64,000 nucleotides of DNA from Mariprofundus sp. KV. Lineage in GTDB: Bacteria; Pseudomonadota; Zetaproteobacteria; Mariprofundales; Mariprofundaceae. The notes under the pieces are model-generated. The model saw only the letters and a list, made by a program, of their open reading frames with translations, ran no database searches and was not told the origin of the DNA. Made by a program: the position numbers and the translations under genes. The stretch is taken from assembly GCF_013387475.1 (NCBI RefSeq), contig NZ_VWNB01000001.1:214559-278558 (forward strand), written 5' to 3'. Shown in pieces: positions 2-50,028 of the stretch (the stretch's first letter is position 1; every line of letters begins with the position of its first letter).

Positions 2-154
2 CTGCGTCCGAAGGGCATTGTGCAGACACTTGATCTGCTGCGTCCAATCTACGCACAGACCGCTGCTTACGGTCACTTTGGCCGCGAACTGCCGGACTTC
101 ACCTGGGAGAAGACCGACAAAGTGGACGCCATCAAGGCTGCCGCCGGGGTTTAA
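2..154 (+). CDS. metK: S-adenosylmethionine synthetase, C-terminal fragment
   Basis: This is the last 50 codons of an open frame that enters from the left edge and stops at 152-154. The peptide contains YGHFGRE near the C terminus, a sequence typical of the end of MetK, and ends in an Ala-rich tail. MetK makes S-adenosylmethionine from methionine and ATP in the cytosol. The downstream neighbour ahcY removes the product inhibitor S-adenosylhomocysteine, so the two genes form part of one methyl cycle. The start lies outside the window, so domain order cannot be checked. Confidence 0.88.
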
Positions 155-156
155 TT

Positions 157-300
157 GAAAGCCGGATAAATGCATCGTGCATTTCCCGGCTAACGCAAAG
201 CCAAAAACGTCGTTTTGACTTTGCTCACAAAACAGAGTGCCAAGCACTCTGTTTTGGCACCCATCCATAGGTGCGGGAGCAGATTCACAACCGACTTTGA
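157..300. repeat. Structured intergenic repeat, copy A
   Basis: The element begins 2 bases after the metK stop. A first hairpin (161-190) has arms gccgg/ccggc and aaatgca/tgcattt. A second hairpin (195-224) has gcaaag/ctttgc plus caaaa/ttttg. A third (228-256) is a perfect 13-bp stem with loop caa. A fourth (257-274) has gcacc/ggtgc around the loop tcca. An outer pairing of 158-165 with 291-298 (7 of 8 bp) could close the unit. The last three hairpins align with copy B at 49840-49992. No U-tract follows, so a simple terminator is not obvious. Confidence 0.6.
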
Positions 301-346
301 CCAGGATAAACAAACCGGCCACCTTTGTGTGGTCGATTTGCTTCCA

Positions 347-413
347 GACTGAGGAGCACTGCAGTGCCGCAAAGCGGTACCAGGCTCAGTCGAAAAATGT
401 TCAACGGTGCTCA
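347..413 (+). promoter_or_regulatory. SAH riboswitch upstream of ahcY
   Basis: The sequence matches the S-adenosylhomocysteine riboswitch layout. Stem P1 pairs gactgag (347-353) with ctcagtc (385-391). An inner hairpin pairs gtgccgc (364-370) with gcggtac (374-380). The pseudoknot pairs gagcac (354-359) with gtgctc (407-412), placed after an A-rich linker and the conserved aacgg. In known SAH riboswitches ligand binding raises ahcY expression, which fits the gene that starts at 469. Recognition rests on base pairing and conserved bases seen directly. Confidence 0.88.
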
Positions 414-421
414 TATTTTTA

Positions 422-49242: not shown

Positions 49243-49839
49243 ATGGATGAGTGGTTCACTATCGTTGTTCGCCAGCTGATTCTCTACAGTCTGCCTGTGC
49301 TTGTTTCGATCACTCTGGTCACCATGCTCGAAGCCCGACTGATAAAAGGTGGGCTGCCACACCCCTTTTATGCCATATCCTGGCGAGGCTGCTGGATTCC
49401 GTTTTTAACCGCACTCTGCTTCCATCGTGGTGTCATCATTGCACTGCCCAACCCTCTCAAGCCGGGTTTAAAGGCTGCGGCCACCCGCCTCATCGCCCAC
49501 GCGCTGCTCTGCGCTATCGGCTTTCTTCTCTATGCCTGGAGCCTTGCCTCTCAGGCTCCGGTCGGCCTGCCGCCGCTGCACCTCTGGTGGGCCAAGGTGT
49601 TGATGTTTTTTAACCTCTGCATGCTCTTTCTGCATCTGCTGCCGCTACCTCTGCTGCTGATGGGAGAGATCATCGCCAAAAGCCCCAAACTTCCCCCTCT
49701 GCCGGGTGGAAATTCGCTGACATGGATTAGCCTGACGCTACTGGTTGCCACACCGATACTTGATCTATCGCTCGGCTCGTTCATGATATATCCGGTCTAC
49801 GAGTGGTTGAGTAGCAGTGCTATACAACTTGCAGGCTAA
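49243..49839 (+). CDS. Hypothetical integral membrane protein
   Basis: The 198-residue protein has about five hydrophobic segments separated by short basic loops. No motif is recognised. No Shine-Dalgarno is clear before ATG 49243. Its stop codon (49837-49839) touches the structured repeat copy B. It is divergent from the four-helix protein gene. Confidence 0.65.
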   Translation: MDEWFTIVVRQLILYSLPVLVSITLVTMLEARLIKGGLPHPFYAISWRGCWIPFLTALCFHRGVIIALPNPLKPGLKAAATRLIAHALLCAIGFLLYAWSLASQAPVGLPPLHLWWAKVLMFFNLCMLFLHLLPLPLLLMGEIIAKSPKLPPLPGGNSLTWISLTLLVATPILDLSLGSFMIYPVYEWLSSSAIQLAG

Positions 49840-49992
49840 GGAATCTCTGAAAAACCACGTCCATGTAGTTTTTCAGTACGCAAAGGCAAAAGCGTGGCTT
49901 TGCCTTTGCTCACAAAACCGAGCACTTACTGTGCATGATTTTGGCAGGCCATCCATGGCCTGCACGGATACGCTGACTTTTTCAGAGTATCC
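49840..49992. repeat. Structured intergenic repeat, copy B, with terminal inverted repeats
   Basis: The 153-bp element starts right after a stop codon. Ends GGAATCTCTGAAAAA (49840-49854) and its inverted partner (49978-49992) match at 13 of 15 bases. Inside are four hairpins: ctgaaaaac/gtttttcag (49847-49876), an 11-bp stem gcaaaggcaaa/tttgcctttgc (49880-49909), caaaa...gcac/gtgc...ttttg (49913-49943) and gcaggcca/tggcctgc (49944-49963) with loop tcca. The last three match copy A (157-300) with compensatory changes. It may be a mobile palindromic element or an RNA 3' element. Confidence 0.65.
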
Positions 49993-50028
49993 CTAATATT
50001 GGCAATATATTTGCTTGAGGATCAAGCT

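Follow-up and report, generated by a model that had tools for sequence, protein, structure and literature searches.

The 153-bp repeat at positions 49840-49992 of the analyzed Mariprofundus sp. KV DNA (hereafter the window, a stretch of 64,000 nucleotides) is almost certainly a non-autonomous transposable element, a MITE of IS5 type. Its body is a series of five hairpins, and it is very likely the minus-strand form of this fold that is under selection. Taken as a whole, the reading in which a MITE of this type bears, on its minus strand, an RNA resembling those that bind CsrA is probable, and there is about an even chance that the predicted RNA does bind CsrA. Computation establishes the repeat family with its target duplication and empty sites, the matching IS5 ends, the covariation and strand preference of the fold, the GGA loops and the co-occurrence with csrA; trans-mobilization, minus-strand transcription, CsrA binding and a physiological effect are inferences. 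The features of the two copies in the window are:

152-289, minus strand: copy A, an old divergent member of the family, lying after metK and ahead of the following gene's SAH riboswitch
49836-49839, no strand: left target-site duplication CTAA, identical to the CTAA at the right end
49840-49992, minus strand: copy B, the complete mobile element (153 bp), its selected fold very likely on this strand
49840-49854, plus strand: left terminal inverted repeat GGAATCTCTGAAAAA, which covaries with the right end and is of the same type as IS5-family ends
49847-49876, minus strand: hairpin 1, whose loop on this strand is CAUGGACG, its GGA at 49860-49862; two-sided changes in 10 of 12 pairs
49880-49909, minus strand: hairpin 2, loop without GGA; 8 of 12 pairs with two-sided changes
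49913-49943, minus strand: hairpin 3, loop without GGA; 11 of 13 pairs with two-sided changes
49944-49963, minus strand: hairpin 4, whose loop on this strand is CAUGGAUG, its GGA at 49952-49954; two-sided changes in 7 of 8 pairs
49966-49992, minus strand: hairpin 5, which includes the right terminal inverted repeat together with a second, inverted copy further in; two-sided changes in 8 of 11 pairs
49978-49992, minus strand: right terminal inverted repeat, TTTTTCAGAGTATCC on the plus strand, which covaries with the left end
49993-49996, no strand: right target-site duplication CTAA, flanking copy B

A sequence-only reading had reported two copies of a multi-hairpin element in one orientation, and both are found in the window. 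Copy B scores 188 bits against covariance model R1 (E = 3e-48) and copy A scores 65.7 bits against the covariance model (E = 8e-15). The predicted folding energies are -66 kcal/mol for copy B (z = -7.9) and -60 kcal/mol for copy A (z = -7.0), and 0 of 200 shuffles were as good in either case. The base changes described between the copies are present as reported. In hairpin 3, GAGTGC/GCACTC of copy A corresponds to GAGCAC/GTGC of copy B (T-A to C-G and G-C to A-T), and in hairpin 4, GCACC/GGTGC corresponds to GCAGG/CCTGC, two C-G pairs being flipped to G-C around an unchanged TCCA. The boundaries proposed for copy B prove to be those of the exact element without its flanking CTAA duplications. 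Copy A has kept the GGA loop of hairpin 4; its hairpin 1 has changed and lost its GGA. Both copies occur at the same loci in a close relative (G001), where the orthologue of copy B is 98% identical. The SAH riboswitch (window 345-419; Rfam RF01057, 55.3 bits) adjoins copy A downstream, after the identified metK, and the ORF that follows it is ahcY-like in appearance.

BLAST of copy B across 61 genomes recovered near-complete copies from its own genome, 81-92% identical to it, and a larger number from other members of its genus and family; an alignment of 13 own copies has sharp ends on both sides. With a covariance model of the family built from 47 copies, matches occur in at least 40 of the 78 genomes of the class, and a scan of the collection places the family in Mariprofundus, other Zetaproteobacteria and several proteobacterial MAGs. 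The multi-genome counts, all lower bounds at E<1e-6, reach at least 40 (G040) and at least 32 (G038) within the order, and beyond the class at least 115 (G041), 38 (G171), 19 (G057) and 11 (G135), with fewer in G169 (at least 7), G219 (at least 7) and G048 (at least 1). The sequence-only reading had made its case depend on further copies that preserve the stems. About 40 matches at E<1e-4, copy A included, are present in the own genome (2.53 Mb) and hundreds in relatives, and the stems are kept by two-sided changes.

Mobility is recorded at the element's edges. Of the 43 copies flanked by YTAR on either side, 41 have the same 4-mer left and right (permuted mean 14.4; 0/20000 permutations). YTAR is the published target duplication of IS5 (PMC10359306). 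When contig C11 of the own genome was compared with its syntenic counterpart in G001, the copies at 156347, 160267, 163650 and 176343 were absent from the relative, leaving four empty orthologous sites. The exact target duplication is readable at 176343, where the relative has ..ATATTTAGGATCAAGG.. uninterrupted and the own genome has ATAT-TTAG-[element]-TTAG-GATCAAGG, with TTAG duplicated. A length of 153 bp, multiple copies, no transposase gene, terminal inverted repeats, a target duplication of constant length and empty sites together describe a MITE, and the 4-bp YTAR duplication is that of IS5-type mobilization.

IS5-family elements with matching ends were found within the class (G004, G067 and G077), with transposases that match NF033581, the IS5 model, at 333-338 bits. 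The left end of the G004 IS, GGAGATGCTGATTAA, is also the left end of a MITE in that genome (compared ends: IS GGAGATGCTGATTAAT, MITE GGAGATGCTGATTAAA). The G067 element is flanked by CTAG duplications, and the G077 IS has perfect GGCACCTCTGAACAAC at both ends and TTAG duplications. No IS5 transposase of the matching type was found in the own genome at E<=1e-8; the copies there were either made by an IS that has since been lost, or the partner was missed. Two other candidate partners were set aside: the high-copy transposases at contig ends in G016 have ends unlike those of the element, and a search around a PF01609/PF05598 transposase of the own genome (487 aa, C5) found no matching end.

Copies of the repeat had been noted to start 0-3 bases after a stop codon. 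This is seen, as the stop codon of the ORF upstream of copy B (49243-49839) is the TAA of the left CTAA. It does not stand as a functional placement, since the element adjoins stop codons because its YTAR target contains TAA or TAG, and copies also lie in divergent, convergent and antisense contexts. Insertion at a stop codon duplicates YTAR, so the stop is regenerated and the upstream gene is unaltered. The target thus offers a simple account of repeats at stop codons. Among non-redundant copies with clear flanking genes, 28 are codirectional in sense, 9 antisense, 15 convergent and 20 divergent. The plus strand is therefore sense in 28 of 37 codirectional insertions (p = 0.0026), and the bias may reflect purifying selection that purges the other orientation from transcripts.

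The same bias is what a plus-strand 3'UTR or attenuator element would show, one located downstream of genes, with UCC loops that either stabilize mRNA or pair with Shine-Dalgarno sequences. The loops do read UCC on that strand, several copies directly adjoin stop codons, and the wobble of hairpin 4 falls on the plus-strand side. However, nearness to stop codons follows from the target, 20 copies lie between divergent genes, and a search in and near copy B found no intrinsic terminator-like site (nor a sigma-70 promoter-like one). Wobble and energy lie on the minus side in four of the five stems and in most copies, and we regard such a plus-strand role as quite improbable.

That selection acts on a folded form, as proposed from two copies, is upheld across the family. 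In a sequence-only alignment, 44 of the 56 pairs of the five-stem structure have two-sided changes, against a shuffled mean of 23.2, and 88.8% of stem cells are standard pairs, a share that falls to 36-47% in slid versions. Covariation is also seen in the alternative pairing between the element's ends, as expected of inverted repeats recognized by a transposase. The terminal inverted repeats and competing fold described for copy B both exist, and because the end pairing covaries too, its competing folds are real possibilities. An H-type pseudoknot beside hairpin 2 (ACGC/GCGT; 85.5% paired, 8 two-sided cells) was also considered and rejected, its two-sided pairs and pair types being not above shuffles.

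Which strand, then, carries the selected fold? An A.C mismatch on the plus strand is a G.U pair on the minus strand. In a parsimony reconstruction, stem mismatches on internal branches are 59 A.C against 17 G.T (plus-strand sense), those on terminal branches are 113 against 87, and unpaired sites have 165 A.C-type and 177 G.T-type. The contrast between internal and terminal branches fits purifying selection in spreading lineages, with decay after insertion. Among 27 representatives below 75% identity, A.C again exceeds G.T (88 to 50); hairpin 4 alone has the opposite bias (8 to 20 in the same set). Of 95 untied copies, 70 fold more stably as minus-strand RNA (p = 2e-8, a value that overstates independence because the copies are related), as do 41 of 50 distant copies. 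The sequence-only reading was right that a folded form is selected and had read it on the plus strand; wobble and energy favor the minus strand, and the plus strand is probably not the functional one.

Could the hairpins instead be self-complementary filler in an ordinary IS5-type MITE, their compensatory changes produced by template-switch (quasi-palindrome) repair? The MITE features are certainly real, the wobble bias on terminal branches is weak, and old orthologous copies diverge beyond their flanks yet stay palindromic, as hairpin-templated correction would give. Nevertheless, such repair leaves the internal-branch excess of A.C over G.T, absent at unpaired sites, unaccounted for, and does not explain why genomes whose stems are unrelated conserve GGA loops in two particular hairpins and in none of the other three. 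We consider this explanation unlikely. A structure read in single-stranded DNA, like IS200/IS605 or the REP/BIME repeats moved by TnpA-type enzymes, would suit a multi-hairpin architecture, and DNA hairpins tolerate G.T wobble too. We hold this to be very improbable, as 4-bp target duplications and terminal inverted repeats are unexpected for IS200/IS605, the matching transposases are IS5-type DDE enzymes, and own copies on contig C11 are without replication-strand bias (6 to 6). A lagging-strand mechanism was rejected given the lack of that bias in own copies.

The loops of the predicted minus-strand RNA set hairpins 1 and 4 apart. Their apexes carry GGA in 88 of 105 copies (hairpin 1) and 91 of 104 (hairpin 4), compared with 0 of 104 for hairpin 2 and near zero for hairpins 3 and 5 and for the plus strand. 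The two GGA loops are ~90 nt apart, read mostly CANGGANG, the CsrA/RsmA motif, and are retained even where the stems are wholly different; one own subfamily has the loop CUACACGGAUGUAG, and extended copies have additional GGA loops. In 50 copies from other families, which differ over most of their stem sequence and can have ends of CAGGCTGTTGAA type, there are 96 GGA loops (72 CANGGANG, 12 CAGGANG), and the plus strand has 1. SELEX with E. coli CsrA gave the consensus RUACARGGAUGU, its GGA placed in hexaloops (PMC7652899); for the RsmA/CsrA structure, the motif cited is CANGGANG (PMC6692469). GGA in hairpin loops and in an ANGGA context, a mark of CsrA-binding RNAs, is thus present, in stems that exceed the length preferred in the CsrA SELEX (PMC7652899). 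No relevant Rfam family matched the window or the distant copies at the gathering threshold, or the surroundings of copy B under a permissive one.

The own genome encodes two csrA genes. csrA occurs in all 27 element-bearing genomes that are at least 90% complete, against 103 of 212 others, and at the genus level in 18 of 18 element-bearing genera against 61 of 136 others (p = 3e-6), an association confounded by phylogeny, as the element could be missing from CsrA-less lineages for unrelated reasons. In two incomplete MAGs (G096 and G097) the element is present and csrA was not found. G169, a distant Pseudomonadota genome, has nine CsrA homologues and at least 7 element copies on CAGGYTGTTGAA ends.

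We suggest the following sequence of events. IS5-family transposases that recognize GGAWRC-type ends presumably move the element in trans. The minus strand would be transcribed as its own short RNA or by read-through, and one CsrA dimer could bind the loops of hairpins 1 and 4 together. Copies may then titrate CsrA, or the host transcript may fall under CsrA control. The orientation of codirectional insertions, 28 to 9 for plus-strand sense, speaks against minus-strand read-through: it more often yields the strand without GGA, and many copies are without minus-strand transcription from their neighbors. More tentatively, and at somewhat less than even probability, the element may be a mobile CsrA sponge, in which a cargo small RNA captures CsrA and copy number and insertion site rewire the host network, with a family that extends across the Zetaproteobacteria and scattered Pseudomonadota and uses IS ends of two or more kinds.

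How does the element compare with known systems? It shares with IS5-family insertion sequences and IS5-type MITEs the 4-bp YTAR duplication, short terminal inverted repeats, and ends that match IS5-family elements of related genomes. Unlike IS5 elements, it has no transposase gene, and its five-hairpin RNA-like module is not seen in them. The same module has CAGGCTGTTGAA-type ends in distant Pseudomonadota. Like CsrB/CsrC and RsmX/Y/Z, it has several hairpins with GGA in apical loops in the CANGGANG context, to which extended copies add GGA loops. However, each 153-bp unit has only two (up to four) such loops and is present in tens of dispersed mobile copies, and unlike CsrB/RsmZ it has no Rfam match, its CsrA binding being predicted here from sequence. 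Correia/NEMIS, ERIC, BOX and QMITE are likewise dispersed intergenic elements with strong folds, and QMITE1 and QMITE2 yield small RNAs (PMC10969869). They differ in sequence and target, and neither CsrA-type loops nor selection on a minus-strand fold is described for them in the section consulted of that review (PMC10969869). The TAACTGA repeats of Beggiatoaceae are something else; their authors thought CsrA unlikely there (PMC4679880).

MITEs are commonly regarded as passive IS debris. Here the non-terminal architecture, five hairpins with GGA in two fixed ones, is constant while stems, ends and hosts change, which points to single-strand-specific selection on the cargo. Elements of this kind are known. 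The open-access literature searched yielded no earlier description of Zetaproteobacterial MITEs or of CsrA-binding MITEs, and no MITE in which a CsrA-type RNA is conserved as cargo through changes of ends and hosts; nor was a CsrB-type RNA found described for element-bearing bacteria. If CsrA does bind, a transposable element would be distributing sites for a global post-transcriptional regulator, sometimes more than 100 per genome, and this would provide a testable route for the rewiring of CsrA regulatory networks.

Variation within the family takes several forms. The 2.9-Mb genome G041, outside the class, has many longer variants (180-210 bp) among its at least 115 matches (L365, L374, L382, L390, L395-L400 and L414). 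At L343 (G002:C42:39500-40800), three consecutive minus-strand matches form head-to-tail tandem copies ~160 bp apart. The G001 orthologue of copy A (L034/L076) carries a nested, multi-hairpin insert of ~70 nt (ACAAAAGAGCTGGAGC..GAGTCA) within hairpin 2, and related inserts with extra GGA loops lie between hairpins 3 and 4 in L157, L020, L186 and L249. Old orthologous copies (own C11:71470 and 190607 versus G001 C2) diverge far beyond their 92-96% identical flanks with their stems kept, which suggests conversion, template switching or a relaxed primary sequence.
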